A program made the position numbers and the translations under genes. DNA of 39,444 nucleotides, taken from the NCBI GenBank assembly GCA_021821045.1, contig JAKACW010000039.1, forward strand, positions 1-39,444, in the 5' to 3' direction. Below, one piece after another: positions 23,449-39,238 of the stretch. The notes beneath the pieces were generated by a model. It did not search any database. It saw nothing but the letters and a program-made list of their open reading frames with translations, and was not told the origin of the DNA. Source of the DNA: Pseudomonadota bacterium. Its GTDB lineage: Bacteria > Pseudomonadota > Gammaproteobacteria > JAADHS01. The stretch's first letter is position 1. The number at the start of each line of letters is the position of its first letter.

Positions 23449-25974
23449 ATGAAAAAAAGCATGGCCGTTTTGGGTGCGCTGCTTGCCGCCAGCGCATCGT
23501 CGAGTTTCGCGGTTACGCCGCCCAAGGGCAAACAGCTCGATGTCGACCCCACGCACTTCAAAAAGGGCGAGATCGTGGTGCGCGTCAAGGCGGGAACCAA
23601 CATCAATACGCTTGCCGGCAGTCTCTCGTCGTACGGGGTAAGTAGCGCCCAAGGGCTTAAGTTGCCGAAGAAATTCCGCTCTTCGAAGCTCAGCAATTGG
23701 CAGGTGCTCAAGCTGGCACCGGGCCAGGATGAGAAAAAAGTCCTAACGCGGCTGCTAAAAGATAAAAAGGTGGAATTCGCTCAGCTCAATCATCGTGTCG
23801 TCGCCACGGCGATCCCCAATGATCCGCGCTTTGGCGAGCTGTGGGGGATGCATAACACGGGCGCGCAGGGAGTTGAAGATGCCGACATCGATGCCCCCGA
23901 GGCGTGGAACACGCTGACGGGCGGCGATGTGGTGGTGGCGGTGATCGATACGGGTGTGGACTACACCCACGAAGATTTGGCCGCCAACATGTGGACCAAC
24001 CCCGGCGAAATTCCAAACAACGGGATCGACGACGACGGCAACGGCTTTGTCGACGACTACTACGGCTACGATTTCAGCGCCAACGACGCCGATCCCATGG
24101 ACGAAATGGGCCATGGGACGCATGTGGCGGGCACCATCGCCGCGGTCGGCGATAACGGTGTTGGCGTTGCCGGCGTGAACTGGCAAGGCAAAATCATGGC
24201 GGTGCGTTTCCTCGACGCCGGAGGCAGTGGGTGGTATGACGATGCGGTGGAGGCGACGTTGTACGCAGCCGCCAACGGCGCACGGATTACCAACAACAGT
24301 TGGGGCGGTGGCGGGTTTGACGAGGCGCTCTACGATGCCCTGCGGGTCGCCCAGGACGCGGGCGTATTGACCGTCGCCGCCGCGGGGAACGACTGGAGCG
24401 ATTCCGACCGGTTTCCTCTGTATCCCGCCGCCTATGACTTGCCAGGCATTGTTTCCGTCGCGGCCGGCACCTCTACCGATGAACTTGCCAATTTCTCCAA
24501 CTGGGGCAAGGTGAGCGTGGACCTCGCGGCGCCTGGGATGGGAATCCTGTCGACTGTGCCGACGGACGTTTGGCTGGGTGATCCCAGTGGCTACATGTAT
24601 CTCGATGGCACCTCCATGGCGTCGCCCCACGTCGCGGGCGCCGCGGCGTTGTTGCTGGCGCAGGACGGTTCGCGCAGCGCGATCGGGGTCAAGCAACTGC
24701 TGCTGCAAACCGTAGATACCCTTCCGGCGTTTTCAGGAAAGCTGGTCTCCAACGGGCGTTTGAATCTAAACAGCGCCGTGAATTGTGATGCCAGTCAAAT
24801 CTCGCTGGTGCTCGGGGATCCGGCCGAGGGTTTCTTTGTCAAGCAATATGTCACGCGCACGGTCAGTGCGTTTGTCGGCGCCTGCGGCGCGACCTTGCCG
24901 GATGCTGCGGTGACGGCGAGCTTCTCCAACGGCGAACCGACGTTGCCGCTCTACGATGACGGTCTGCACGGTGACGGTGGAGCCGGTGACGGCTTCTACG
25001 CCAACACCTGGGAGCCATCGATCGTCGGCGACGTGACGGTTGCGGTCAATGCACAAGATCCCAATCTGGGCCAAGCGTCAGCCAGCGTCAGCGGTGTTGT
25101 CTACGATGTGTTGAACTACCGCATGGAAAGCGCGCCGTACGACTGGATCGATGCGACGGCCGGTGGAATCCTGATGTCCGGCGGTGACGATGATGTGAGC
25201 TGGCTGCCGCTGGAGTTCAGCTTTAACTTCTACGGCGTGCCATACAGCGAGGTTTATATCAGCGCCAATGGCTTCCTTTCTTTCACCGACTGGTCAATGG
25301 CCTTCGTCAACCCATCCATGCCGGATGCGGCATTGCCGAACGCGATTGTCGCGCCGTACTGGGACGACCTAACCGGCGCGACGGTATATGCCCTGACCGA
25401 CGGCGTTGCGCCGTACCGTCGAACCACTATCGCCTGGTACAAGGCCAAGCACTATGACGCTTCCAGTGCGGGATCGATCGTTTTTCAAGTAAGCCTTTAC
25501 GAAACGACCAACGAAATCGTCTTCCGTTACAACGATGTGGTGTTCGGCAACGCCAGTTTGGACAAGGGCGCGAGCGCGACGGTCGGCGTGGAAGATGCGA
25601 CCGGCACGTCGGCGAGTGTGTTTTCGGTTAACCAAGCGAAACTCACGGACCAATCGGCGATTCGATTGTCGTTTCAGATTGGCAAAGTCGCGCCGGTGGC
25701 GAACGCTGGACCGGATCAGACGGTGAAAAGCAAAACCAAGACCGTGAGTTTGTCCGGGGCATCATCTAGTGATGTGGACGGTTCGATCGTGGCCTACGGG
25801 TGGCGTCAAATTTCGGGTCCCGCCGTGAAGCTTGCCAATACCAACCAAGTCACGACGAGCTTCAGTCCGCCAAAGGGAGTGAAGTATCCGGCGACGCTGG
25901 TCTTTGAGCTAACGGTGACTGACAACGATGGCGGTCAGAGTACCGATCTTGTTAACGTCACCATTGTTAAATAG
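23449..25974 (+). CDS. Secreted S8 (subtilisin-like) serine protease with C-terminal PKD-type domain
   Basis: The 841-residue protein starts with a Sec signal peptide (MKKSMAVLGALLAASASSSF, cleaved after Ala21-22). An inhibitor-like propeptide follows (about 35-120, including GEIVVRVKAGTNINTLAGSL). The S8 catalytic domain has Asp167 in VIDTGVDYTHED, His222 in GHGTHVAGT, the oxyanion Asn in AAAGNDWSD, and Ser389 in GTSMASPHVAGA. After residue 440 come a beta-rich domain, a region with FNFYGVPYSEVYISANGFLS, and a PKD/REJ-like domain from about 750 (VANAGPDQTVKSKTKTVSLS). All three catalytic residues are present, so it is probably active outside the cell. Its ATG has an AGGGAAG ribosome site. 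No export genes are adjacent. Confidence 0.93.
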   Translation: MKKSMAVLGALLAASASSSFAVTPPKGKQLDVDPTHFKKGEIVVRVKAGTNINTLAGSLSSYGVSSAQGLKLPKKFRSSKLSNWQVLKLAPGQDEKKVLTRLLKDKKVEFAQLNHRVVATAIPNDPRFGELWGMHNTGAQGVEDADIDAPEAWNTLTGGDVVVAVIDTGVDYTHEDLAANMWTNPGEIPNNGIDDDGNGFVDDYYGYDFSANDADPMDEMGHGTHVAGTIAAVGDNGVGVAGVNWQGKIMAVRFLDAGGSGWYDDAVEATLYAAANGARITNNSWGGGGFDEALYDALRVAQDAGVLTVAAAGNDWSDSDRFPLYPAAYDLPGIVSVAAGTSTDELANFSNWGKVSVDLAAPGMGILSTVPTDVWLGDPSGYMYLDGTSMASPHVAGAAALLLAQDGSRSAIGVKQLLLQTVDTLPAFSGKLVSNGRLNLNSAVNCDASQISLVLGDPAEGFFVKQYVTRTVSAFVGACGATLPDAAVTASFSNGEPTLPLYDDGLHGDGGAGDGFYANTWEPSIVGDVTVAVNAQDPNLGQASASVSGVVYDVLNYRMESAPYDWIDATAGGILMSGGDDDVSWLPLEFSFNFYGVPYSEVYISANGFLSFTDWSMAFVNPSMPDAALPNAIVAPYWDDLTGATVYALTDGVAPYRRTTIAWYKAKHYDASSAGSIVFQVSLYETTNEIVFRYNDVVFGNASLDKGASATVGVEDATGTSASVFSVNQAKLTDQSAIRLSFQIGKVAPVANAGPDQTVKSKTKTVSLSGASSSDVDGSIVAYGWRQISGPAVKLANTNQVTTSFSPPKGVKYPATLVFELTVTDNDGGQSTDLVNVTIVK

Positions 25975-26915: not shown

Positions 26916-26971
26916 CGAGGGGTGATTGAAAAGTATAAGGGATAGTCAAAAAAGTCTGGCTTGAGGCGTCA
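26916..26971 (+). promoter_or_regulatory. Conserved leader element upstream of the first RCC1 lipoprotein gene
   Basis: This 56-base stretch, from CGAGGGGTG to GGCGTCA, aligns without gaps with 29868-29923, with about 41 identical bases by eye. It ends 51 bases before the start codon; the other copy ends 50 bases before its own. It probably carries the promoter or a leader element common to both genes. No clear -35/-10 pair was assigned. Confidence 0.45.
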
Positions 26972-27022: not shown

Positions 27023-29788
27023 TTGATCGGGTTCATTTCATGGGAAGCGGCGCATTGGCTGCGCGCGCTCGGCGCGGCTGTTGTCATCGTGATTGCCGGT
27101 TGCCAAGCAGGGGGAGAACTGGGCGATCCGCCGGCCGCACCGCAATTGTCCGCGGCCCCTGGCGATCGATCGATTCGGGTGGAATGGCCGGCGGTGGAAG
27201 GCGCCGGCGCATACTATCTTTATCGCCTTGATTCGGCGCAACCGACGGTACGGGCTGTGCAATCACGCCAGCTCGCGACGTCTCCGCTCGTTCTCGACGG
27301 TCTGACCAATGGCGCGACTTATTATTTGGGCGTGACCGCGATTGGCCAAGGTGGGGAAAGCGCTTTTTCCGAGATCGTCGAGGTCACACCCCAGCCGCCG
27401 CCAGCCGCACCGCAGAATGTCGTGGTTTCAACAGGCAACGGCTCGGTCGCGCTGCAGTGGGACGCGTCGACCGGCGCCCAGACATACCGCGTTTATCGAC
27501 TGCGCGGCGGGACACCGACGGACGGCGATATCGCCGCGGCACCCGGTTATGAAGGTCTGAACAGTGCTGTCGAGTCTGGATTTGTCGCCGACGGCCTGGA
27601 CAACGGCGTCGAGTATTCCTTTGTCGTCACAGCGGTAAACCAAAGCGGCGAGAGTGAACCGTCAACGATTGTCACCGCCACGCCGGGACCAATACGGATG
27701 CTCAGCACCGGGAAGCATCACGCATGTGCTATCGATAGTGAGTACCGGGCTTGGTGTTGGGGCGATAACGCTGATGCCCAGTTGGGTCAGAACGCTGCCC
27801 TGCTATCTCCAACGCCTCTTGAGGTGACCGGCGTGGACGGTTGGAGATTAGTGGCGGCGGGCGAGCGCTACACCTGTGGCGTCTCGCTTGATGAGGCGTT
27901 GATTTGCTGGGGCGGATCGGGCGGCCTGCAGATGGTTGCCGACGCGCCGCCGCGGACACGGACAACGTCGGTTGCCAGCTATTGGCGCAGCATTGCCATG
28001 GGGGCCGACAATGGTTGCGGCGTGCAGAGCGACGGTGTGCTGTGGTGTTGGTCGTTCGAATCGTCTCACAGCGGCAATTCGAGCAACGCCGCGCTGAAAC
28101 GCATTGGCCTGAGCTCCGAGTGGTTGGACGTCTTTGTCAATGATCAGAACTGGTGCGCCCGCAAGCAGGATTTGTCACTGTGGTGCTGGGGCGAAAATAG
28201 TGTCGGTCAACTCGGCACTTCCATGACGGTTGCTTCCAATGTCCCGATCGCTGTGGCGCCGGAATCGCGATTTGTCCAAATCAGCGTCGGCAAGAGTGGC
28301 GAGCCGGATGGATTTACGAATGGCACTGGTTACTCCCACGTTTGCGGCATCGATGTCGACGGAGTGCTATGGTGCTGGGGTTTCAATCGCTACGGCCAGC
28401 TCGGCAACGGACAGACGGAAGACGGCAAGAGTCCGCAGCGGCTTGTCGGTGCAAAGCCATGGTCAACGGTCGCCGCCGGTGGGCATCACACCTGTGGCGT
28501 CCAAGTCGACGGCACTCTGTGGTGTTGGGGAAGCAACGAGTTCGGGGCGCTCGGACTGGAGCAGCGGGCTGATTATCTCGAACCAACTCAAGTCGGCCAA
28601 GACACCGACTGGCGGCAAGTGTACGCCGGGCTGCAGTTCACTTGCGCCATGAAAGCCAACGGGGCGGTCTGGTGCGTGGGGCGCAACAACTACGCGCAAC
28701 TTGGTGACGGGGCCGCTCCCAGCGAGTCGGAGCCGTCGGTGGTCCTGGTCGATGTCATTGATTTCGCCGCTGCAGCAAGTGGTGCCTGCGCGGTGCGGAC
28801 CGGCGGAACCACTTGGTGCTGGGGCGAAGTTGCGCTGGCGCGGGGGCGCGAAAGCGCACGGGTATTTACAACGGAACGGGCGCCAGCGCCGATCGGCGCA
28901 CTGCCCGAGTTTGAAACCCTGTCCGCCAATCCAACATACGACGACGTGTGTGGCCGCGCGCGGGGAGGAGAATTATGGTGCTTTCGTTTGGCCAATCCGT
29001 CCGAGCGCTGGCGCAGCGATTTTTCCTTCGATTTGAAGGAACTTGCTCTCGGTCAGAGCGCTATATGCGCGTTGGGATCAGGCGCTAATTTGTACTGCGG
29101 GTTCGGCATCTATTCGATTTCCGAGCTCAGCCAAGCCTTGGCGCCGCTCGGAAAGGGTGTTACGTGGTCAAGCATCGCAGCGGGTTCCAGCTTCGCCTGT
29201 GCCGTTTCTGCAGCGGGCAGTTTGGAGTGTTTCGGTGTCGATAACGGGGGTGTTGTGGGTACGGGAGGAACGGGTTTCTCGCTGCTGGAGCCGATCCAGC
29301 TGATCCCGTTGTTCCCGGACAATGACTGGAAGGCCGTTGCCACTGGCTACTGGCATGCTTGCGCCATCGATGTCGCTGACGATCTGTGGTGTTGGGGTTC
29401 CGGCGACCGGGGGCAGTTAGGCGTCGGTCCCGATCCAGATTACAGCGTGCAGCCACATCGGGTCGATGATGGCCCGTGGCGCTTGGTTCGCGCTGCAAAC
29501 CAAGCGACCTGTGCAGTAAAAGAGGATGGCAGCCTGTGGTGCTGGGGAAATCACGCGGTCGGTCTCGCCCATCCTGAGATGGCTTCAGGACGGTTCGCAA
29601 GGGTTGACCGTCCCCAACAAGTGGGCACCGCGACTGACTGGATCGACGTCGCCCTCGGTCAGGGTTTTGGTTGCGGCCTGCGCGCCGGCGGCCAGTTGCA
29701 CTGCTGGGGTGTCAACAACCTGGGCCAAGTCGGCGACGGCAAAGCGTGGTCAACGGAGTGGGTACGGGTGGACTTCGCGGGGGAATAA
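27023..29788 (+). CDS. Lipoprotein with two FN3 domains and 14 RCC1-type repeats
   Basis: The 921-residue protein starts at TTG 27023 after GAGGGTGGGG; no in-frame ATG fits the signal peptide. The lipobox is VIAGC with Cys27. Two fibronectin type III domains follow (about 38-122 and 125-220), each ending in a GGES or SGES turn. Residues 225-921 contain 14 RCC1-type repeats built on CxIDxDGxLWCWGxNxxGQLG, for example GIDVDGVLWCWGFNRYGQLG. Each repeat has a cysteine pair about ten residues apart, which would suit disulfides outside the cytoplasm. Fourteen repeats suggest two seven-bladed propellers. RCC1 propellers usually bind proteins; the partner here is unknown. It is paralogous along its whole length to the next gene. 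Confidence 0.85.
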   Translation: MIGFISWEAAHWLRALGAAVVIVIAGCQAGGELGDPPAAPQLSAAPGDRSIRVEWPAVEGAGAYYLYRLDSAQPTVRAVQSRQLATSPLVLDGLTNGATYYLGVTAIGQGGESAFSEIVEVTPQPPPAAPQNVVVSTGNGSVALQWDASTGAQTYRVYRLRGGTPTDGDIAAAPGYEGLNSAVESGFVADGLDNGVEYSFVVTAVNQSGESEPSTIVTATPGPIRMLSTGKHHACAIDSEYRAWCWGDNADAQLGQNAALLSPTPLEVTGVDGWRLVAAGERYTCGVSLDEALICWGGSGGLQMVADAPPRTRTTSVASYWRSIAMGADNGCGVQSDGVLWCWSFESSHSGNSSNAALKRIGLSSEWLDVFVNDQNWCARKQDLSLWCWGENSVGQLGTSMTVASNVPIAVAPESRFVQISVGKSGEPDGFTNGTGYSHVCGIDVDGVLWCWGFNRYGQLGNGQTEDGKSPQRLVGAKPWSTVAAGGHHTCGVQVDGTLWCWGSNEFGALGLEQRADYLEPTQVGQDTDWRQVYAGLQFTCAMKANGAVWCVGRNNYAQLGDGAAPSESEPSVVLVDVIDFAAAASGACAVRTGGTTWCWGEVALARGRESARVFTTERAPAPIGALPEFETLSANPTYDDVCGRARGGELWCFRLANPSERWRSDFSFDLKELALGQSAICALGSGANLYCGFGIYSISELSQALAPLGKGVTWSSIAAGSSFACAVSAAGSLECFGVDNGGVVGTGGTGFSLLEPIQLIPLFPDNDWKAVATGYWHACAIDVADDLWCWGSGDRGQLGVGPDPDYSVQPHRVDDGPWRLVRAANQATCAVKEDGSLWCWGNHAVGLAHPEMASGRFARVDRPQQVGTATDWIDVALGQGFGCGLRAGGQLHCWGVNNLGQVGDGKAWSTEWVRVDFAGE

Positions 29789-29867: not shown

Positions 29868-29923
29868 CGAGGGGTGCTCAAAAATTAAAACGACCAGTAA
29901 AAAACGTCTTGCTGTTGGCGTCA
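29868..29923 (+). promoter_or_regulatory. Conserved leader element upstream of the second RCC1 lipoprotein gene
   Basis: This is the second copy of the 56-base element at 26916-26971. It has the same ends, CGAGGGGTG and GGCGTCA, and nearly the same distance to the start codon, with a matching CTGAGGGT ribosome site downstream in both. It would drive the gene run that begins at 29974. Confidence 0.45.
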
Positions 29924-29973: not shown

Positions 29974-32900
29974 GTGAAACCGGATTTTCCTATTGGCGCT
30001 ATGACGCAGGCGCGCGCGTTTTGTCGCGCGTCGCTGGCATGGATCGCTTTGCTCATTGCCGGCTGTCAGGCGGGAGGTGAACTGGGTGATCCGCCCTTCG
30101 CGCCGGAGATCGCCGTTACGCCGGGCGACCGCTCGGTGCGCTTGGAGTGGCAGCCGGTAGAAGGCGCCGGTGCGTATTATCTTTACGTCTCCGAACCGCA
30201 GCAAGGTTCGACGCCGCCGGCGCAATCGCGACGAATGGTCACGTCGCCTGCGGCTGTCGAGGGATTGAGCAACGGCACAACCTACTACCTGTGGGTGACA
30301 TCGGTCGGCTCGGGTGGCGAGAGTAACGTTCAACAAGTCCATTCCGTCACGCCCCAACCGCCGCCCGCCGCGCCACAGAACATTTTGATTGCCACGGGCA
30401 ACGGATCGGTCGCTCTGCAATGGGATGCCCCCGCTGGCGCGGAGACATACCGAGTCTACAGACTACGCGGAAGTCAGCCGGTGGAGGGTGACATCGCGTC
30501 GGCGCCTGGGTTGGAAGGCTCGAACAACGCCGCATTGCCCAACTTCACGGTCGACGGCCTCGATAACGGTGTCGAGTACTCCTTTGTGGTCACCGCGATT
30601 AATCAAAGCGGGGAAAGCGCCCCGTCGGCGATTGTGACGGCCACTCCCGGACCGTTTCGCTCCGTCAGTATCGGCGGCAATCACGGTTGCGTCATCGATG
30701 CGAAGGCGCAGATGTGGTGTTGGGGGTCCAATTCTAGCGGCCAAGTGGACGGCGCGTCGGGTGGGCGTATGCTGGAGCCGGTGCAGGTGGGTGGGATTGC
30801 CACATGGAAAACAGTCAGCGCCGGAGGCAGCAACACCTGCGGCGTCACTGCGGATGAATCCATCATGTGTTGGGGCAGTAACTCTGTCGGATTGACTGTG
30901 GTTGCGGAACGGCCAAATGGGTCCCGTTCACCTCTGCCCGAAGAGCGCTGGGTAGCCCTGGCCACCGGTAATGACGCCAACTGCGCGGTGCGTGGCGATG
31001 GTTCGCTGTGGTGCTGGGGGAACCTCAACGGGGTCAACAGCGGCCAGCTCACCCGGTTGGGATTTGCCAGTGATTGGGCCGACGTGGACGTGGGCGGCAG
31101 TCACTTCTGCGCCCGCAAGCTTGACTCCAGCGTGTGGTGTTGGGGTAACAACGATTCCGGTCAGCTTGGCACGGGCACGATGGAGTCGGTCGAGCGACCT
31201 GTGTCGATTCCGCTTGCCGGCAAGGTGAAAGCGCTCTCTACCGGCATGATCCATACGTGCGCCATCGACATGGACGACCAGTTGTGGTGCTGGGGCGGCA
31301 ATGGGTCCGGCCAGATTGGGGTTGACCTCACCGATGGTGCGATTGCGCAGCCCAGTCGAGTCGGCGGCGGCTCACAATGGCGCGACGTTAAGGCGGCCAA
31401 TGACTGGACCTGCGGCGTCAAAACCGATGGCACGCTGTGGTGCTGGGGTAACAATAGTTTCGGCCAATGGGGTGGCGCACCCCGCTTGACGGCGGCGGAA
31501 GACCTGGAGCTTATTCGAACCGTACCGGTGAGCGATGTGGCGCTTGGGCCACCCCCACTGCACGCTCACACTGTTCCCCAGCCGCTTCCAGCTTCCCCAG
31601 TTGACCACGCACAAGTACTCGGCGCTTGCGCCTCGTGCCACAACGGCACAATGGCCCCTGGAAAGCCCTCGCGTCACATCGCCACGACCGACGCATGTGA
31701 GGCGTGCCACACGACAGTTGCGTGGGTGCCGGCGCGGACCGGAACAAGTGTCACGGCTCGCAGTCTCGTGGCCGACACGCAAGCTTTGGCCACATCCGAC
31801 GCCGGAGACGTCATCACGACGGACACCACACTTTCCCCGCGCCAAGTCGGTGCGGATGGCGATTGGGTCGCCGTGTACGCCGGCGAGCAACACACCTGCG
31901 CGTCCAAACGGGATGGAAGTTTGTGGTGTTTGGGCCGCAGACAGTCAGGGCAATTGGGGGTGGGCGGCGAACCATCCGCTGCGGAACCGCCGCTGGTGTT
32001 GGATGAGGCGCAGGCGTTGGCGTCTCGCGCTACCATGAGTTGTGCGTTGCGTCTTGATGGTACGCTGTGGTGCTGGGGCGATTTTTCTCGGGGCGCGAGC
32101 ACCGGTACCCAGTTTCAAGTTCCCACTCTGGTCGGCGCAGCCGGTCGCTTCACCAAGATCTTTGGTGTGAGCGAAGGTATTTGCGCCTTGACCGCCGATG
32201 ACGAAATGTGGTGCTTGGGCGGCAGTCTCGGTCGAGAGCCGAGCTATGCCAGTCTTAGCATGCGAGGAGCGCGGATCAGCGTTGCAGCAATGGCTTCGAG
32301 TGGCAACCTGTTTGGCCCCAGCGGCGTATGCGGCATCGATGCGGGCCGTCGGTTGGGTTGTGCCGCGGGCTTCAGCCAGGGAACCCGTCTGACCATTGAT
32401 ATCTGGAGTGATCTCATGGGCAACGGAACGGTCGTACAAGATCCGAATCTCGCTGCCGCCGTCGAGCCGGGACAGTGGCGTGACGTTGCCATGGGATACG
32501 ACCACGTATGTGCAATTAGTGACGACGCCAGACTGTTGTGCCGGGGCAGCAATTCGGCGGGTCAGTTGGGTTTCTTTCGGGGCGACGCACACGACCCAAA
32601 TGTTTTTTTCCACAGCGCGGACTTTATTGAGCCGATCCCAGCAGTCCAGATGCAAGATGTCGCCGCCGGCGACTATCACACTTGCGCAATTGGTGTTGAC
32701 GCGGCCTTGAGGTGTTGGGGTTCGATGAGACAGTCTCTTCCAGCCGAGCCCATTGACCTTGTTGCGCCCGGTAGCGCGTGGCGCACGGTGGAGTCCGGTC
32801 CGACAAGCAATTGCGCTATCCAAGTCGACGGCAGCTTATGGTGCTGGGGCTCCGGTAGTTACGATTCCTCATATATGGTTACGCCCGCTTGGGCTGGCGG

Positions 32901-33093
32901 GTCCGCTGAACCGAAGCGCATCGGGATCTTAACGGATTGGATTGCCGTCCAGCCCGGTGATGGATTTTCCTGCGGCCTGCGCAGCGGAGGCCAAGTCCAC
33001 TGTTGGGGTGTCAACAATCTGGGTCAGCTTGGTGATGGCAAAGCGTGGTTGACCGAATTCACTCGAGTGAAATTTCCTGATGAACAAGAATGA
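29974..33093 (+). CDS. FN3/RCC1-repeat lipoprotein with inserted diheme cytochrome c-type segment
   Basis: The 1039-residue protein starts at GTG 29974 (ribosome site GAGGGTAGGGG). An ATG at 30001 is possible and would shorten the signal peptide. The lipobox is LIAGC with Cys31. Two FN3 domains (about 42-226) and 14 RCC1-type repeats with paired cysteines match the preceding paralog. Between repeats 6 and 7, residues about 509-619 have no counterpart there. This segment holds VDHAQVLGACASCHNG and TTDACEACHTTVAW, with CXXCH motifs at 552-556 and 575-579, the haem c attachment signature. It resembles one unit of the repeated CHNG/CHTT cytochrome-like module of other secreted proteins. Haem attachment is inferred. 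The gene overlaps the next by 14 bases and probably leads the operon. Confidence 0.85.
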   Translation: MKPDFPIGAMTQARAFCRASLAWIALLIAGCQAGGELGDPPFAPEIAVTPGDRSVRLEWQPVEGAGAYYLYVSEPQQGSTPPAQSRRMVTSPAAVEGLSNGTTYYLWVTSVGSGGESNVQQVHSVTPQPPPAAPQNILIATGNGSVALQWDAPAGAETYRVYRLRGSQPVEGDIASAPGLEGSNNAALPNFTVDGLDNGVEYSFVVTAINQSGESAPSAIVTATPGPFRSVSIGGNHGCVIDAKAQMWCWGSNSSGQVDGASGGRMLEPVQVGGIATWKTVSAGGSNTCGVTADESIMCWGSNSVGLTVVAERPNGSRSPLPEERWVALATGNDANCAVRGDGSLWCWGNLNGVNSGQLTRLGFASDWADVDVGGSHFCARKLDSSVWCWGNNDSGQLGTGTMESVERPVSIPLAGKVKALSTGMIHTCAIDMDDQLWCWGGNGSGQIGVDLTDGAIAQPSRVGGGSQWRDVKAANDWTCGVKTDGTLWCWGNNSFGQWGGAPRLTAAEDLELIRTVPVSDVALGPPPLHAHTVPQPLPASPVDHAQVLGACASCHNGTMAPGKPSRHIATTDACEACHTTVAWVPARTGTSVTARSLVADTQALATSDAGDVITTDTTLSPRQVGADGDWVAVYAGEQHTCASKRDGSLWCLGRRQSGQLGVGGEPSAAEPPLVLDEAQALASRATMSCALRLDGTLWCWGDFSRGASTGTQFQVPTLVGAAGRFTKIFGVSEGICALTADDEMWCLGGSLGREPSYASLSMRGARISVAAMASSGNLFGPSGVCGIDAGRRLGCAAGFSQGTRLTIDIWSDLMGNGTVVQDPNLAAAVEPGQWRDVAMGYDHVCAISDDARLLCRGSNSAGQLGFFRGDAHDPNVFFHSADFIEPIPAVQMQDVAAGDYHTCAIGVDAALRCWGSMRQSLPAEPIDLVAPGSAWRTVESGPTSNCAIQVDGSLWCWGSGSYDSSYMVTPAWAGGSAEPKRIGILTDWIAVQPGDGFSCGLRSGGQVHCWGVNNLGQLGDGKAWLTEFTRVKFPDEQE

Positions 33094-34234
33094 GGGCAGT
33101 ATCGTGGTGAGCCATTTCGCGCTTCGTTGCGCCCAGTTGGCCTTTGGGGTGTTGATCACTCTGCTGTTGGTCAAACAGGTATTCGCTTTCGAAGCCATCG
33201 AGCCTTCACCCGGCACGCGCGCCATGGGTATGGCGGGGGTGTTCGCGCCGCAGGCCGACGACAGCACGGCGATTTGGTACAACCCGGCCGGGCCGAAGCA
33301 CGGTCATGGCGTGCGGCAGGAAGTGTCCGCCGAACTCACCGATGCGGCCGCCCTCGAGATTCCGATGGCCGGCGGGGCGGTGTCTGGATTTGATAAGGGG
33401 GAAACGAGTCTGCGATTCGTTGGCGCCTATCGCGCCGGCATTGATCCGGACGACAAGCAAGCGACGGGATTCGGGTTGGCTTATTTGCGTCTCTACGACG
33501 CGGCGGTTTACGTCGATGCGCCGCGCAGCTTGTTGGACAGCACACCCTATGGTCGGGTGGAAAGCGTCTACCACCAGATCTCCGCGGCGCTCAATCGCAG
33601 TGTGTCCCACCGATTCACAGTGGGTGCGTCGCTCGATGTGCTTTGGACCGAAATTAGCTGTTTGGATTTTTCGCCATGCGTGGACAACGGACCGAACGGT
33701 TTTGGCGGCAGCGTCGGCGCGCTGTTTGACATCATCAAGACAGAAGAGCGTGCGGTCACTGCGTCCGCGATGTGGCGATCGGGGGCTGATTTGAGCTACG
33801 ACAGTCTGCCGTCCTCGGGTGTCGGCACGGTGTTGGAGAATTTTCTGCCGGATCGCCCTGAGACGTTGTCCATCGGAGTTAGCGTGAAACAGCCCTTGAG
33901 CTGGGCTCACCTGAGGGGGAACGTGGTGTATGAGATGCGCGATTGGTCGGGTGCCGCCAGCAGCGATGCGCCGCTGTCGGATTACTCGGGATGGGGCGTG
34001 AGCGGCGAAATGATGTCGGCGCCCCAGATCGGTCGTACGCTGGCGCTGCGGCTGGGGCTGAAACAGATGCAAGCGGATGACGCCGGGGACGACGTCAAGG
34101 TGCTCGCGGTCGGCGTCGGTTACGGTTTTGGCGGACGGCACGCCGTGGACGCCGCGGTGGAACGCCGCGACGGCGGCGGCGCCGCGCAACAAGAAAACAC
34201 CGCGTGGTCCGTATCCTATTCAATTCAGTTCTGA
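33080..34234 (+). CDS. Outer-membrane beta-barrel protein (FadL/PorV-like)
   Basis: The 384-residue product has a signal peptide (hydrophobic LAFGVLITLLLVKQVFAF, cleavage near residue 36). The mature start PSPGTRAMGMAGVFAPQADD then STAIWYNPAG is the hallmark of FadL/OmpP1- and PorV-like barrels. Alternating amphipathic strands continue to the end, which is the barrel terminus SVSYSIQF with a final Phe. Substrate and role are unknown. FadL relatives import hydrophobic compounds, and PorV-like proteins shuttle exported proteins. The start overlaps the RCC1 lipoprotein gene by 14 bases, so the two are probably coupled. The exported caspase-like gene follows after 13 bases. Confidence 0.78.
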   Translation: MNKNEGSIVVSHFALRCAQLAFGVLITLLLVKQVFAFEAIEPSPGTRAMGMAGVFAPQADDSTAIWYNPAGPKHGHGVRQEVSAELTDAAALEIPMAGGAVSGFDKGETSLRFVGAYRAGIDPDDKQATGFGLAYLRLYDAAVYVDAPRSLLDSTPYGRVESVYHQISAALNRSVSHRFTVGASLDVLWTEISCLDFSPCVDNGPNGFGGSVGALFDIIKTEERAVTASAMWRSGADLSYDSLPSSGVGTVLENFLPDRPETLSIGVSVKQPLSWAHLRGNVVYEMRDWSGAASSDAPLSDYSGWGVSGEMMSAPQIGRTLALRLGLKQMQADDAGDDVKVLAVGVGYGFGGRHAVDAAVERRDGGGAAQQENTAWSVSYSIQF

Positions 34235-34247
34235 GGGGCGCTGGCAA

Positions 34248-36164
34248 ATGACACGATTCACGAAATGCGGGCTGATTGTGTGCGCACTCTTTCCCCTGTT
34301 GGCGCAGGCGGGCAGCGAGGCGGCGTTGGAGTTTTTCCGCCAGGGCGAGGCCGCGTTTGCCGGGAAGCAATTTGACCAGGCAACCGATCTCTACACAAAG
34401 GCTATCGCCGAGTCGGCCCAGGATGGTGTGCTTGTCATCGGAACCGAGACGGTCGAGCGGACCGTGGGCGAGGGCCGATTCGCCCGCAAGGTGACGGCCG
34501 AATCGGTGCACGAAGCGGAGTACTTTCCCAATCGCCGTTTGCAGGAGATCACCCGGCTGCGCATTGAGGAGGTGCGCCGCCAGTCCCCGCCGGAGTTGCG
34601 GGTTACCTGGATGACTCTCAATGAGCCGACCCGCGACGATGTGCTCGACGGCGGTGAGCGCGGGGCCCTCGTCGTGACCGTGGAGAACACCGGAGTGTCC
34701 CAGGCGCTCGATGTATTTCTGGACATCGAAGCCGATGAGCGCAATGGACTGGAGTTTCCGCGCCGTTTGGATATCGGCAACATCGCACCAAGCGAGTCGT
34801 CCGTCGCGAACATCCAAGTCGCGGCGGCCCGTGACATCAAGAACGTCAGTCGCCAGATTCACATCACTGCCCGCGAGCGTGACGGTCACCCGAGTAATCG
34901 ACTGACGGTCGCGCTGCGCACGCGGCCCCATGAACCGGCGCAACTGGCGATTTCAGATATTCAAGTCACCGATCTCACCGGCGATGGACAAATCGAGCCG
35001 ATGGAAACAGTGTGGGTCACCGCCATGGTCAGCAACATCGGCAAAGGCGTGACCAATTCGTTGATCGCGCGCCTCGATGTGGGCAACAACGTGTTCCTGG
35101 GACCGGAGAACAACGAACCCCTGGTGCTCGGCGAGCTGTTTCCCGGTCAAGCGCGGAAGGTGGAGTTCTCGTTTCTTACCAATCGGCGTTTCGAAGAGGA
35201 CCAGAAGATTCCGGCGACCTTGCGCGTGGTGGACGTCAGCGACACGCGCCATGCGGAAAAGGATCTCAGCGTGTATGCCCACATCCCCCGCGATAAAGTC
35301 GGCTTGTACGCCAAGCGCTCGCTCAACACTGGGTCCGTCGATGAGCCGATTCCGACCGCCGATTTTCTGCTGCCACGGCGCGCCGAGCGCAATCCCAATG
35401 CTGTCGCGGTGGTGATTGGCAACCGCAACTACGCCAAAGCCGGACTGCCGGCCGTGAAGTACGCTCACAACGATGCGCGGGCGATCAAGGAATATTTGGT
35501 GCATGCCATGGGCGTGGACGAGCAGAATATTCTTTATGTCGAAGATGCCACCGCGGCATCGTTCAGCGAGATTTTTGGCACCCACGATGTGTATGCCGGC
35601 AAACTCAACAGCTATCTCAAGCCCGGTGTTTCCGACGTGTTCGTCTATTACTCCGGCCACGGCGCGCCGGACTTGAATAATCAGGGCGCTTATTTCGTCC
35701 CCGTGGACGCTGATCCGGCCTATATCGCCATGAGCGGCTATTCGTTGGATTTGTTTTACCGCAACGTGGCCAAGCTGCCGGCCCGCGCCGTGACCATCGT
35801 GTTGGATACGTGTTTCTCGGGTAACACCGACGGCGGATTCTTGTTGTCGAACGTCAGCCCGGCGGCGGTTCGCGTCAAGACCGACGGTCCGGCCATCTCC
35901 AACGCCAACATCTTCACTAGTGCGCGGGGCCAGCAAGTGAGCGCTTGGTTTCACGAGAAGCGCCACGGGTTGTTCACCTATTACTTTCTCAAAGGACTCT
36001 CCGGGGCGGCGGACGAAGACAGCGACAAGGTCGTGACGTCGACAGAGTTGGGCGCATTTCTCGCCACAGAGGTCTCACATCAAGCGCGCCGCAAGTATGG
36101 GCTCGAGCAAGTTCCGCTGCTGATCGAGCGCCAGCCATTGAACATGGCGCGCTTCGGCGATTGA
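34248..36164 (+). CDS. Exported caspase-like (peptidase C14) protein with TPR-like and Ig-like regions
   Basis: I chose the ATG at 34248 because it starts a signal peptide (MTRFTKCGLIVCALFPLLAQ, cleavage after AQA) and has a GAGGGG ribosome site. This gives 638 residues. Residues 24-58 form a TPR-like helix pair (ALEFFRQGEAAFAGKQFDQA). About 110-360 are beta-rich, with VVTVENTGVSQALDVFLDI and a second similar unit, resembling CARDB-type modules. The caspase domain begins at NAVAVVIGNRNY. The catalytic pair is His471 in VYYSGHGAPD and Cys522 in VLDTCFSGN, 51 residues apart, as in caspase-fold enzymes. Both residues are present, so activity is plausible, but substrate and cleavage specificity are unknown. 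Unlike cytoplasmic bacterial caspase homologues, it should act outside the inner membrane. The sigma factor gene follows after 19 bases. Confidence 0.87.
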   Translation: MTRFTKCGLIVCALFPLLAQAGSEAALEFFRQGEAAFAGKQFDQATDLYTKAIAESAQDGVLVIGTETVERTVGEGRFARKVTAESVHEAEYFPNRRLQEITRLRIEEVRRQSPPELRVTWMTLNEPTRDDVLDGGERGALVVTVENTGVSQALDVFLDIEADERNGLEFPRRLDIGNIAPSESSVANIQVAAARDIKNVSRQIHITARERDGHPSNRLTVALRTRPHEPAQLAISDIQVTDLTGDGQIEPMETVWVTAMVSNIGKGVTNSLIARLDVGNNVFLGPENNEPLVLGELFPGQARKVEFSFLTNRRFEEDQKIPATLRVVDVSDTRHAEKDLSVYAHIPRDKVGLYAKRSLNTGSVDEPIPTADFLLPRRAERNPNAVAVVIGNRNYAKAGLPAVKYAHNDARAIKEYLVHAMGVDEQNILYVEDATAASFSEIFGTHDVYAGKLNSYLKPGVSDVFVYYSGHGAPDLNNQGAYFVPVDADPAYIAMSGYSLDLFYRNVAKLPARAVTIVLDTCFSGNTDGGFLLSNVSPAAVRVKTDGPAISNANIFTSARGQQVSAWFHEKRHGLFTYYFLKGLSGAADEDSDKVVTSTELGAFLATEVSHQARRKYGLEQVPLLIERQPLNMARFGD

Positions 36165-36183
36165 GGGGCGAGCGAAGGTCGCA

Positions 36184-37119
36184 ATGGAGTCATCCTCGAA
36201 TGCGTTGCCCCAAAGTGCGCCGCACTTGCTCGCCGACGAGACTGCGTCAGAGCGCGCTGGATCAGCGGCGGCGTCCCGCGTTGAGGTGAACCGCCTGGCC
36301 AATGGTTTGGTGCAAGCCAAGGTGGCCACGTTCTGCAAAAAATTCTGCTTCAATAATCGCCGTATTCACCGTTGCACCGTCGATCCGAAGTGGGGGCGCG
36401 GCGAGTCCACGGCGCCGTTGTGCGACGCGGGCAATGCCACTTATCTGTGGATGTTGGAGCAGTTGGCTGGCGAGCATCGCATCGTGGCGCTCGAGGCGAA
36501 GGGTATTTCCTCGCTTGAAGCCTATTGGCGCAAAGTCATGGGGTCGCGGCCGTTCTGGGAGCGTTTCAAAGATTGGCGGTTTGGGCGTCGTATAAGAGTG
36601 CCGGCTTACGTCAAAGCCCTCGATAAGGACGCGCATAAAGTGTTTTGGTTCATGTGTGATGGAGACGCCGCGCCGAACATCGCTCAGCGTGTCGGCCGTC
36701 CGGAAGCGGAGATCGCGCGGCTTGTCGGTCAGATCAATCGCGAACTGCAACGGCGCAACCATGCCGGGGTACCTGTTGTTCCCCAGACTGAATCGCTGAC
36801 CCGGTGGACAGAGCATGATGAATCCGAGCAAGCGGAATTGGCCAGTGAGGAGATCGAACCGGACGAACATCTCTGGCGTCAGCATGTCATGGAGGCGTAC
36901 GGCAGCCTGACCTGGCAAGAACAGTTTATCGTCGATGCCATGGTGGTCGACGGTTTGAGCGCCAAAGCCGTGCTCACGGCGCTGCAAGTGCAAAATATTC
37001 AGCTTGGGGAAGATTGCGATCCAAATCAGATGAACGTGCAATCCGTGTATTACTTCCTACGCAAGACCCTAGCGAAGGTGCAGAAAATCGCGCTGACGGT
37101 CGAGGAGAAGTCGGAATGA
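36184..37119 (+). CDS. Divergent sigma-70/ECF-like factor with N-terminal cysteine cluster
   Basis: The 311-residue protein resembles an ECF-type sigma factor. A probable region 2 spans about 85-165 (NATYLWMLEQLA, LEAYWRKVMGSRPFWERFKD, WRFGRRIRVP), followed by an HTH-like stretch. A probable region 4 spans about 235-305 (YGSLTWQEQFIVDAMVVDGL, then NVQSVYYFLRKTLAKVQK). The match to classical motifs is weak. The strongest support is context: the next gene, overlapping by four bases, encodes a membrane zinc anti-sigma factor. The protein is longer than most ECF factors. Cys51, Cys55, Cys64 and Cys80 cluster before region 2 and could bind metal or sense redox state; this is an inference. The ATG at 36184 has a GAAGG ribosome site. 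Confidence 0.6.
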   Translation: MESSSNALPQSAPHLLADETASERAGSAAASRVEVNRLANGLVQAKVATFCKKFCFNNRRIHRCTVDPKWGRGESTAPLCDAGNATYLWMLEQLAGEHRIVALEAKGISSLEAYWRKVMGSRPFWERFKDWRFGRRIRVPAYVKALDKDAHKVFWFMCDGDAAPNIAQRVGRPEAEIARLVGQINRELQRRNHAGVPVVPQTESLTRWTEHDESEQAELASEEIEPDEHLWRQHVMEAYGSLTWQEQFIVDAMVVDGLSAKAVLTALQVQNIQLGEDCDPNQMNVQSVYYFLRKTLAKVQKIALTVEEKSE

Positions 37120-38408
37120 TCACCCGTTCCCACCTCACCCGCGACCAACTCCTGGGCTTGTTGATCAGTGAGCCTGGCGTGGACGCGCAAACCGTTCGGC
37201 GCCATCTTCTCGATTGCGCCGGTTGTCGCGACCGCATGGCTGACCTGAACAAACTGGCTGGCTTCTTGAAGCAAGTCAACGACGAGTCAGTCGAAGCAGT
37301 TGCGCCTGAGCATCTTAGTGATGCTCAGGTGAGCGAGTATGTTTTTGGAGCGATGGATCCCGCGGAGCGCGACAGCGTGGACGCTCACCTCAAGTCCTGC
37401 GGCGCCTGCATGAAGCATGTCATGCGGCTTCGATCCCACCGCGCGGCGAATGAACTTGCGCGGGCCGCGGCGGTGTCGGAGGAGTCAAAGCCGAATGCAA
37501 CAGTGACGGGTATTGGCGCGATTGCGCAAGCTAGAAAACAAAGGCCGATGACGATGGCGTGGAGCGGACTCGTCGCCGCCGGTGTCGGTGCGTTGGCGGT
37601 GTATGTCGGGGGATGGATGGCGGGCAACGATACGCCGCACATTGATCCTCTTTCCAACAACGAGCACGTAGCCGAAGTCACGCCGCCACCCATCGATTAC
37701 GGGATGTTAAAAGCGCGTTGGCTGACGGCGCCAGTCAGCCAGAACGGTGTCGACTGGTACGGCGGCTTTATCGAGGCGACTGCGACCGGCACCGTCGACA
37801 TGAGTAAGATGACCAATCGAGTGCAAGCCGAGATGGTCGCCGAAACCACCGCGCGGCATCTGGCGTATGCGGAGTTGGCGGAAATCATCGGCGGGGTTCG
37901 CGTGTCGGGCGGGACGTCCTATTCGGAGTTATTGCTCAAGACCAGCGACCTCAAAGTGGAGACGGACGGATTCGTGCGGGACGCCCGCGTGATCGCCAAG
38001 AAGGTCGAATGGGCGGGCAATGTGCCGAAGGCAACCGTGACCTTGCGCGTGCCGCTGGCCGGAAAGAAAGGACTGGGCGCATTGGCGGGTAAGTATCTTC
38101 GCCCGGCGGATGCGCCGCGCTCCGACCTGCAAGCGCTCGGATCGACGGCAGCATCGCGGATTGTCATCGATGCCCGCGGTGTTGGTTATGAGCCGGCGTT
38201 GAAGGTGGCGTTGACGGCGGGGCCGGCTGGAGAGATTGCGATCGATGACGTGATGTACCTGCCTGCCGCCGAGTATTCCAGTTTGGCAGACAGTGCCGCG
38301 GCGCTGCGGGCCCGGGCTGCCGCTGGAGCCGGGACCTTGCTGTTAAGCGAGCAAGACATCGACGCGCTGAGGCGAGGCAGTAACGCCGCCGTGTCGGTGG
38401 TGTTCTGA
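37116..38408 (+). CDS. Membrane anti-sigma factor with two zinc-finger motifs and a large periplasmic domain
   Basis: The start ATG overlaps the sigma gene stop (ATGA), giving 430 residues. The cytoplasmic part has two Hx3Cx2C motifs of the zinc anti-sigma (ZAS/zf-HC2) type: His30-Cys34-Cys37 in RRHLLDCAGCRDR, and His91-Cys95-Cys98 in DAHLKSCGACMKH. One membrane helix lies at about 147-168 (WSGLVAAGVGALAVYVGGWM). The periplasmic part (170-430) has TARHLAYAELAEIIGGVRVS and KATVTLRVPLAGKKGL, faintly like LPP20/FlgT N-terminal domains. I infer that it binds the adjacent sigma-like factor and senses an envelope signal. The next gene starts within its stop codon (TGATG). Confidence 0.77.
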   Translation: MITRSHLTRDQLLGLLISEPGVDAQTVRRHLLDCAGCRDRMADLNKLAGFLKQVNDESVEAVAPEHLSDAQVSEYVFGAMDPAERDSVDAHLKSCGACMKHVMRLRSHRAANELARAAAVSEESKPNATVTGIGAIAQARKQRPMTMAWSGLVAAGVGALAVYVGGWMAGNDTPHIDPLSNNEHVAEVTPPPIDYGMLKARWLTAPVSQNGVDWYGGFIEATATGTVDMSKMTNRVQAEMVAETTARHLAYAELAEIIGGVRVSGGTSYSELLLKTSDLKVETDGFVRDARVIAKKVEWAGNVPKATVTLRVPLAGKKGLGALAGKYLRPADAPRSDLQALGSTAASRIVIDARGVGYEPALKVALTAGPAGEIAIDDVMYLPAAEYSSLADSAAALRARAAAGAGTLLLSEQDIDALRRGSNAAVSVVF

Positions 38409-39238
38409 TGGTTCGCTTCGGCATTGTGCTGTTGTTGTTGGGTGTGATCCTCGCAACCTCGTCGCGGGTCGGTGCGGAAATACGCACAGTCACTGTATCG
38501 GGTCGCGCGGTTGTGGCCGGGGAAACAACCCTCGATCAGGCGCGCCATGCCGCGCTGAGTCAAGCGCGGACTCTCGCGGTGGAGCGGGCCGCTGGCGTGT
38601 CCGTGTCCAGCGTTGCGCTCCTGCGGGATCAGCTGATGGTTGGTGAATTGGTCAAGACGTTTGCCCACGGCTTCCTGGTATCCGAGAGCAACGTCGCGTG
38701 GCGGGGCGGGTGGTCGGAGGCCAACGCCGGCGAACTGGGTTACCCCATCGTGGACATGACGCTTGAGGCCAAAGTGGACGTGCGCCCCAAGACGTTCTTC
38801 CGCGACTACGCCATCGACGCTTCGCTCGACAAGACGACTTATCGGGATGGCGAATCGGCGCGCCTGCAAATCGCCGCCAAGGAAGATATGTACCTGCTGG
38901 TAGTCAACTACACGTCAACCGGCAGGATTTTACCGCTCCATCCGTATGGCCCGAACCAGCCCAACCTGCTCAAGTCCGGCGCGGTGTTGACCCTGCACGG
39001 TGATGGCGCCGAACCGTGGGATGTGGTGCTGCGCAATTACGCCGGGCACGAACAGGATACCGAAGCATTCATCGCGCTGGGCTTTCCGGTCGATGCACTC
39101 ACCCAGTCATTGACGTGGAGTGTTCTCTTTCCGTCCGGCAAGGAATTCGACTACGCCGAGTTCTTCGCCGCAGTTCTCAAACTTCCCGTGGATTGGATTG
39201 CCCAGGATACGGTGGTCTACACCGTGGTTCGCCGCTAG
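38408..39238 (+). CDS. Exported DUF4384-domain protein
   Basis: The 276-residue product has a signal peptide (VRFGIVLLLLGVILATSSRV, cleavage after VGA). Residues 25-140 resemble FlgT/LPP20-type N-terminal modules (TTLDQARHAALSQARTLAVE). Residues 145-230 form a DUF4384 domain: YRDGESARLQIAAKEDMYLL, NYTSTGRILPLHPYGPNQPN and LHGDGAEPWDVVL. DUF4384 proteins are often encoded with caspase-like or kinase genes, but have no assigned biochemical function. It is the last gene of the overlapping run and shares a one-base overlap with the anti-sigma gene, so it probably belongs to the same pathway. A REP-like element follows. Confidence 0.82.
   Translation: MVRFGIVLLLLGVILATSSRVGAEIRTVTVSGRAVVAGETTLDQARHAALSQARTLAVERAAGVSVSSVALLRDQLMVGELVKTFAHGFLVSESNVAWRGGWSEANAGELGYPIVDMTLEAKVDVRPKTFFRDYAIDASLDKTTYRDGESARLQIAAKEDMYLLVVNYTSTGRILPLHPYGPNQPNLLKSGAVLTLHGDGAEPWDVVLRNYAGHEQDTEAFIALGFPVDALTQSLTWSVLFPSGKEFDYAEFFAAVLKLPVDWIAQDTVVYTVVRR

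Follow-up and report, generated by a model that had tools for sequence, protein, structure and literature searches.

Four described systems come close to the one reported here, a six-gene operon at positions 29974-39238 of a 39,444-nucleotide contig of a gammaproteobacterium (Pseudomonadota bacterium, GTDB lineage JAADHS01; assembly GCA_021821045.1, contig JAKACW010000039.1). In the sigmaE/RseA system of Escherichia coli, a membrane anti-sigma factor is combined with an autoregulated sigma factor and envelope proteases, and the exported M48-TPR protease BepA is an M48 metallopeptidase of the periplasm (PMC7950410, PMC8423444). Protease control of an anti-sigma factor of the DegS/RseA type has been described, and so has a CHAT protease with a sigma factor and an inhibitor, namely the type III-E CRISPR Craspase (Csx29/Csx30/CASP-sigma), in which a caspase-related protease, a sigma factor and its inhibitor share one locus (PMC10028731). 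Zinc-binding anti-sigma (ZAS)-type pairs of extracytoplasmic function (ECF) sigma factors consist of an HxxxCxxC anti-sigma factor with a transmembrane helix encoded next to the sigma gene, and use a GTCT-like -10 element. In EACC1 and EACC2 systems, a caspase is encoded near a sigma gene, and caspase-EACC2-ECF sigma neighbourhoods have been reported (PMC8195603). The operon studied here encodes an RCC1 lipoprotein, an outer-membrane barrel, an exported caspase, a sigma factor, an anti-sigma factor and a DUF4384 protein, and appears to be an unusual member of a so far undescribed bacterial module. The window analysed is the whole contig, which ends 206 bp past the DUF4384 gene.

The module resembles each of these systems and differs from all of them. 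Compared with sigmaE/RseA, its sigma factor has an extra middle helix-turn-helix (HTH) and a four-Cys insert, its regulon seems to be one locus, the caspase is among the outputs, and a DegS-like gene was not recognised in the module locus. Unlike the sigma factors of ZAS-type pairs, that of the module is a three-domain protein without a Pfam sigma-70 match, and its -35 element reads TTCAAAT. Craspase is RNA-guided and cytoplasmic, whereas in the module the caspase is an exported protein and Cas proteins were not recognised; in place of Cas7-11 and the TPR-CHAT protein Csx29, the protease is a C14 caspase, and no other defence model was found among the module proteins scanned, the outlying genes having been scanned only in part. 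The EACC systems differ in that the module caspase is exported and accompanied by a membrane anti-sigma factor; the EACC domain was not found among the module proteins scanned, and matches to NF047832, the NCBIfam model for EACC1-type caspases, reached 71-82 bits against a cut-off of 140. FecR-type anti-sigma and TonB-receptor families, by which FecIRA-type cell-surface signalling would be recognised, were absent from the window genes and from canonical module members. A literature search on caspases with sigma/anti-sigma factors or with M48 proteases, covering few subscription journals, yielded no description of the module.

The distribution of the module was traced through its sigma factor. 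Among 37 related genomes, 3 had a match to the sigma-like protein, as did 10 of the 369 genomes of the class, and a second copy was found in the genome of the window. Scanning GTDB genomes with the window sigma alone gave no match and an alignment of relatives was required; used as a profile, an alignment of ten of them recovered 40 loci, mostly from gammaproteobacterial metagenome-assembled genomes (MAGs), with Reinekea forsetii as the one cultured species. Altogether, the profile searches brought up sigma relatives from about 44 genomes. The loci outside the Gammaproteobacteria lie in bins called Nitrospira, Manganitrophaceae, Troglogloeales and Desulfosarcinaceae (Nitrospirota and Desulfobacterota). 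In the canonical order, genes for an exported M48-TPR protease, the sigma factor, the transmembrane anti-sigma factor, an exported caspase, an outer-membrane barrel and a DUF4384 protein follow one another, and a divergent lipoprotein gene of a family without a Pfam match stands upstream. Among the loci with enough DNA, the sigma gene is accompanied by genes for the anti-sigma factor (36 of 38), M48 (34 of 36), caspase (32 of 33), DUF4384 (28 of 29), barrel (26 of 29) and lipoprotein (25 of 29), counts that rest on open reading frame calls and hidden Markov model thresholds set in-house. The seven families travel together, since their pairwise protein distances correlate: all 21 correlations were positive (Spearman 0.46-0.85), and permutations reached the observed value in at most 2 of 500 cases. 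Because the same association recurs in tens of genomes, the grouping of sigma factor, anti-sigma factor, caspase and DUF4384 protein is not due to chance. The initial annotation had proposed an apparently undescribed envelope sigma/anti-sigma circuit with an exported caspase and a DUF4384 protein, and the recurrence in about 40 genomes supports this view. Its expectation of co-occurrence beyond the strain holds for this core but not for the lipoprotein, as no RCC1 gene was found beside other sigma loci; the haem/RCC1 protein was rejected as a core part for this reason.

Gene fusions were found in three loci. Caspase and barrel form a single gene in two of them (L038:12074-13711 and L054:11923-13614), the caspase being of the exported type, and in genome G250 (L022:9343-10863) sigma and anti-sigma factor occupy one reading frame that ends after the transmembrane helix, so that the periplasmic domain is absent. 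In the loci L035 and L021, M48 and sigma genes stand alone, followed by glycyl-tRNA synthetase genes, and the anti-sigma factor, the caspase and the rest are missing.

A sequence motif, TTCAAA-N16-GTCT, marks the canonical loci. Within 503 kb of loci it occurs 70 times at a spacing of 16, against 0-3 times at each other spacing from 8 to 27, and 66 of the 70 copies lie just upstream of the genes for M48 (25), the anti-sigma factor (22) or the lipoprotein (19). Divergent intergenic regions carry it in both directions, and the fuller consensus is T-rich (TTCAAAT, N15, GTCTyTT). The pattern was picked after viewing the M48/lipoprotein intergenic regions; the spacing control and the copies upstream of the anti-sigma genes are independent of this choice, and a check on further family loci was mostly non-independent, 6 of 7 sites duplicating sequences of the training set. 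In nine whole genomes the motif was only modestly more frequent than a reversed-pattern control, and high-scoring sites lay almost only at the module locus (30 of about 90 sites were read back), on which grounds a wide regulon was rejected. These data are most simply explained if TTCAAA-N16-GTCT is read by the sigma factor of the module, whose main target would be its own locus. The locus would accordingly form a small regulon under its own control, and since the promoter layout puts caspase and anti-sigma factor in one unit, the caspase seems to be one of its outputs, induced together with the inhibitor.

The sigma factor of the window matched no Pfam or NCBIfam family, and the family, for which these databases hold no model, appears undescribed. 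AlphaFold models of its relatives show a sigma2 domain, an extra HTH at residues ~145-208 and then a sigma4 domain; the AlphaFold2 model of one relative, which shares 38% identity with the window sigma, had a pLDDT of 76.7 and a pTM of 0.44. In a Foldseek search with a relative's model, the top rows were almost all sigma factors (best E about 2e-3). The modelled sigma4 domain superimposed on sigma4 of Mycobacterium tuberculosis SigL with a Z score of 9.4 and a root mean square deviation (rmsd) of 1.8 over 69 residues, whereas whole-chain superpositions were poor (rmsd >10) because the domains float in the model. With modelled sigma2 and sigma4 folds, the protein would belong to the sigma-70 family. 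It departs from the definition of ECF (group 4) factors, which have two domains and about 200 residues, by its length of about 310 residues, the middle HTH and the four-Cys insert. The cysteines of this insert (Cys51, 55, 64 and 80) are invariant across 24 sequences including the window sigma, and one might guess that they sense metal or redox state. The anti-sigma factor may bind the neighbouring sigma factor, to which gene adjacency in 36 of 38 loci and the natural fusion point indirectly. A structure model of the fused protein, built on an alignment of read-through rows, was confident per residue, and the structural comparison barely covered its anti-sigma part.

The HxxxCxxC motif is present in 30 of 33 anti-sigma relatives, HExxH in 33 of 33 M48 proteins and the catalytic dyad in 29 of 29 caspases; a search of the PDB by sequence with the M48 protein gave no match. 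The active site of the caspase relatives reads DSCFSG, which in metacaspases and paracaspases is associated with cleavage after Arg/Lys, and 27 of 29 caspases contain an RGI/RGL motif within their first ~110 residues, possibly a self-processing site.

The features of the window are listed in Table 1. As the initial annotation had claimed, all six genes lie on the plus strand with the five junctions given there, which was found again when the coordinates were rechecked. The caspase residues H471 and C522 that it names are present and lie in YSGHG and DTCFSG, and its further statement that five of the six products, the sigma factor excepted, are exported or anchored agrees with the signal peptides, lipobox and transmembrane helix read from the sequence. 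Signal peptides are predicted for the barrel, the caspase and the DUF4384 protein, and the anti-sigma factor has a single predicted transmembrane helix at residues ~151-169. By domain and His-Cys dyad the protease is a caspase, and by its zinc motif the anti-sigma factor is of the ZAS type. The DUF4384 protein scored 23.1 bits with PF14326 (cut-off 27), while one canonical member scored 60.1 bits. The caspase is longer than the canonical ones, has a CARDB-like region, and precedes the sigma gene, as is also the case in L055.

Table 1. Genes and candidate promoter elements in and next to the operon (positions within the window)
Feature	Position	Strand	Evidence
RCC1/fn3 lipoprotein with two-CxxCH insert (aa ~539-588)	29974..33093	+	RCC1-like E 4.5e-79, fn3 E 2.2e-15, lipobox LIAGC
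PorV/FadL-like outer-membrane barrel	33080..34234	+	NCBIfam PorV family E 1.3e-4, Porin_4 E 0.011 (weak); junction -14
Exported caspase (C14) of 638 aa with a CARDB-like region before the caspase domain	34248 (ATG)..36164	+	Peptidase_C14 PF00656 E 2.3e-14; H471/C522; junction +13
Divergent sigma factor: predicted sigma2 with four-Cys insert, middle HTH, sigma4	36184..37119	+	AlphaFold2 models of relatives; junction +19
Anti-sigma factor: two HxxxCxxC motifs, one transmembrane helix, periplasmic LPP20/FlgT-like domain (by eye)	37116..38408	+	zf-HC2 E 3.9e-11, NCBIfam anti-sigma E 9.4e-12; junction -4
Exported FlgT_N/DUF4384 protein	38408..39238	+	DUF4384 E 8.2e-5, FlgT_N E 0.017 (weak); junction -1
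RCC1/fn3 lipoprotein, tandem paralogue without CxxCH insert	27023..29788	+	52% identical to the 29974-33093 gene over the N-terminal half
Candidate operon promoter TTAAA-N16-GTCTTGC	29885..29912	+	Degenerate match to TTCAAA-N16-GTCT; tentative
GTCT box, candidate -10 element, AGTCAAAAAAGTCTGGC	26944..26960	+	Before the first RCC1 lipoprotein gene (27023)

The 'haem' label of the lipoprotein rests on the two CxxCH motifs in its insert of ~50 residues. The whole protein gave 83 matches in the genome, mostly to the repeat holding this motif pair, and dozens of copies of the repeat occur in very long multi-CxxCH proteins on contigs C126, C136, C135, C91 and C19 of the same genome. The tandem paralogue had been missed in the initial annotation; its upstream DNA is homologous to that of the operon. 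A subtilase with PKD domains (23449-25974) is encoded just upstream of the two lipoproteins, and the region 1335-22000 is mostly housekeeping metabolism (phosphoenolpyruvate carboxylase, starch synthase, 6-phosphogluconate dehydrogenase, glucose-6-phosphate dehydrogenase, phosphoglucose isomerase).

The motif TTCAAA-N16-GTCT itself is not present in the window, where only the degenerate form was found 5' of the operon; part of this form recurs in the DNA preceding the paralogue. The sequence AGTNAAAAANGTCTNGC has only two exact matches in the 4.5-Mb genome, one in the 26944 region and one at 29896. Sharing of this box is suggestive of a promoter element, and common ancestry of the two copies could also explain it; likewise, the GTCT box is suggestive, not proof, of a window promoter belonging to the module. 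The sigma4 domain of the window sigma departs from the family (VQSVYYFLRK instead of RQQLYYFRRK), a difference that could fit a shifted -35 element.

In the sister genus G002 (L006:2429-3580), decayed caspase and M48 fragments with broken frames lie directly before an intact sigma/anti-sigma pair. The caspase remnant covers 47 residues with 55% identity to the window caspase, and the M48 fragments follow. Judged from these remains, the sigma gene in the family of the window at one time had a caspase gene of the window type and an M48 gene beside it. In G002, a motif site scoring 18.5 bits also lies upstream of the divergent gene for a secreted protein with beta-helix and Lcl_C domains, and because of this site the surface-protein target seems variable, RCC1 perhaps being its local version. 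The second module copy in the genome of the window (G000, contig C29, L005:6514-13255) has DUF4384 and M48 genes before the sigma/anti-sigma pair; its nearby caspase lies on the other strand and is of a different type (SH3/PEGA-like by eye), and a TCAAAA-N16-GTCT-like site precedes its anti-sigma gene.

We consider it probable that the window operon belongs, in rearranged form, to a conserved envelope module run by its own sigma/anti-sigma pair, with the caspase as an induced output. From gene set and order, co-inheritance, the motif and its positions, the predicted sigma fold, the catalytic residues and the transmembrane and export signals we infer the following course. The membrane-anchored anti-sigma factor would hold the three-domain sigma factor at the inner membrane until an envelope signal acts on its periplasmic domain and the sigma factor is released. 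In canonical loci, the released sigma factor would transcribe its own locus from TTCAAA-N16-GTCT promoters, the first serving the M48-TPR protease and the sigma factor, the second the anti-sigma factor, caspase, barrel and DUF4384 protein, and the third the divergent lipoprotein. The caspase would thus be an output located in the periplasm or at the outer membrane and produced along with the inhibitor, by which the circuit is turned off, and the window operon, with its differing -35 element, would work alike. Several points weigh against this interpretation. Genes for M48, the canonical lipoprotein and the canonical barrel are missing from the window operon, two of its own products, the barrel and the DUF4384 protein, are weakly assigned, and homologues of its caspase in G233, G122 and G001 stand without a sigma gene. 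The motif matrix does not recognise the region upstream of the operon, and a sigma/anti-sigma interface was not measurable from the fused model. Moreover, nearly all loci come from MAG contigs, and placement in Nitrospirota and Desulfobacterota may reflect binning errors.

Other explanations are less probable. The caspase, or the M48 protease, might be the trigger: by cutting the anti-sigma factor on its periplasmic side, as DegS cuts RseA, it would free the sigma factor. In nearly all loci a protease gene adjoins the anti-sigma gene, and control of anti-sigma factors by proteases has precedents, among them cleavage by the caspase-related CHAT protease Csx29 (PMC10028731). Yet cleavage of the anti-sigma factor by the caspase, which the initial annotation had also considered, is possible but unsupported, because the juxtamembrane and periplasmic consensus has no conserved Arg/Lys site; in G250 the fusion leaves no periplasmic domain to be cut, and the predicted sigma-driven induction of the caspase alongside the anti-sigma factor fits an output at least as well. 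We regard a protease trigger as unlikely. We are similarly doubtful that the module serves envelope maturation, the barrel and proteases exporting or trimming a surface lipoprotein (RCC1 in the window, a DLPDSLTGG lipoprotein in canonical loci) and the sigma factor merely setting the dose. The common promoter motif of the lipoprotein, the caspase-barrel fusions and the variation of the surface protein at the target position in family f1, RCC1 in the window and beta-helix/Lcl_C in G002, would fit such a role, but a conserved cleavage site was not demonstrated and the RCC1 proteins have no counterpart in other loci.

It is quite improbable that in the window operon unrelated envelope genes came to lie around a sigma/anti-sigma pair by chance. 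The RCC1, PorV-like and long caspase subfamilies of the operon do differ from those of the canonical module; however, the gene junctions overlap, the same functional classes recur in other loci, and chance assembly is disfavoured because decayed pieces of a window-type caspase and of M48 survive beside the sigma gene in G002. That the module serves phage defence or programmed death, in the manner of Craspase or the EACC caspase systems, seems very improbable. Such a role would account for the match of the caspase to the PADLOC caspase model (E 2e-10), for the NCBIfam EACC1-type match below cut-off and for the caspase-ECF sigma neighbourhoods of EACC2 systems (PMC8195603), but all proteins except the sigma factor are exported or membrane-anchored, and neither Cas nor EACC nor STAND proteins were recognised among the module proteins scanned.

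A speculative extension of the favoured model, an induced caspase under its own sigma/anti-sigma pair, is a self-limiting extracytoplasmic cascade, in which an outer-membrane-linked caspase, induced by a redox- or zinc-sensing three-domain sigma factor, might feed back on the anti-sigma factor and process surface lipoproteins, the cassette with its three own promoters spreading between phyla. Bacterial caspases have been discussed mostly as intracellular death or defence proteases, and to our knowledge their triggers have not been established. With the module, a bacterial caspase located in the cell envelope would come under the control of a genetic switch that can be tested. In tens of species, the cultured R. 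forsetii among them, a single compact locus ties an exported caspase to a sigma factor with its inhibitor and to a defined promoter, and the trigger, the regulon and the substrate of the caspase thereby become directly testable.

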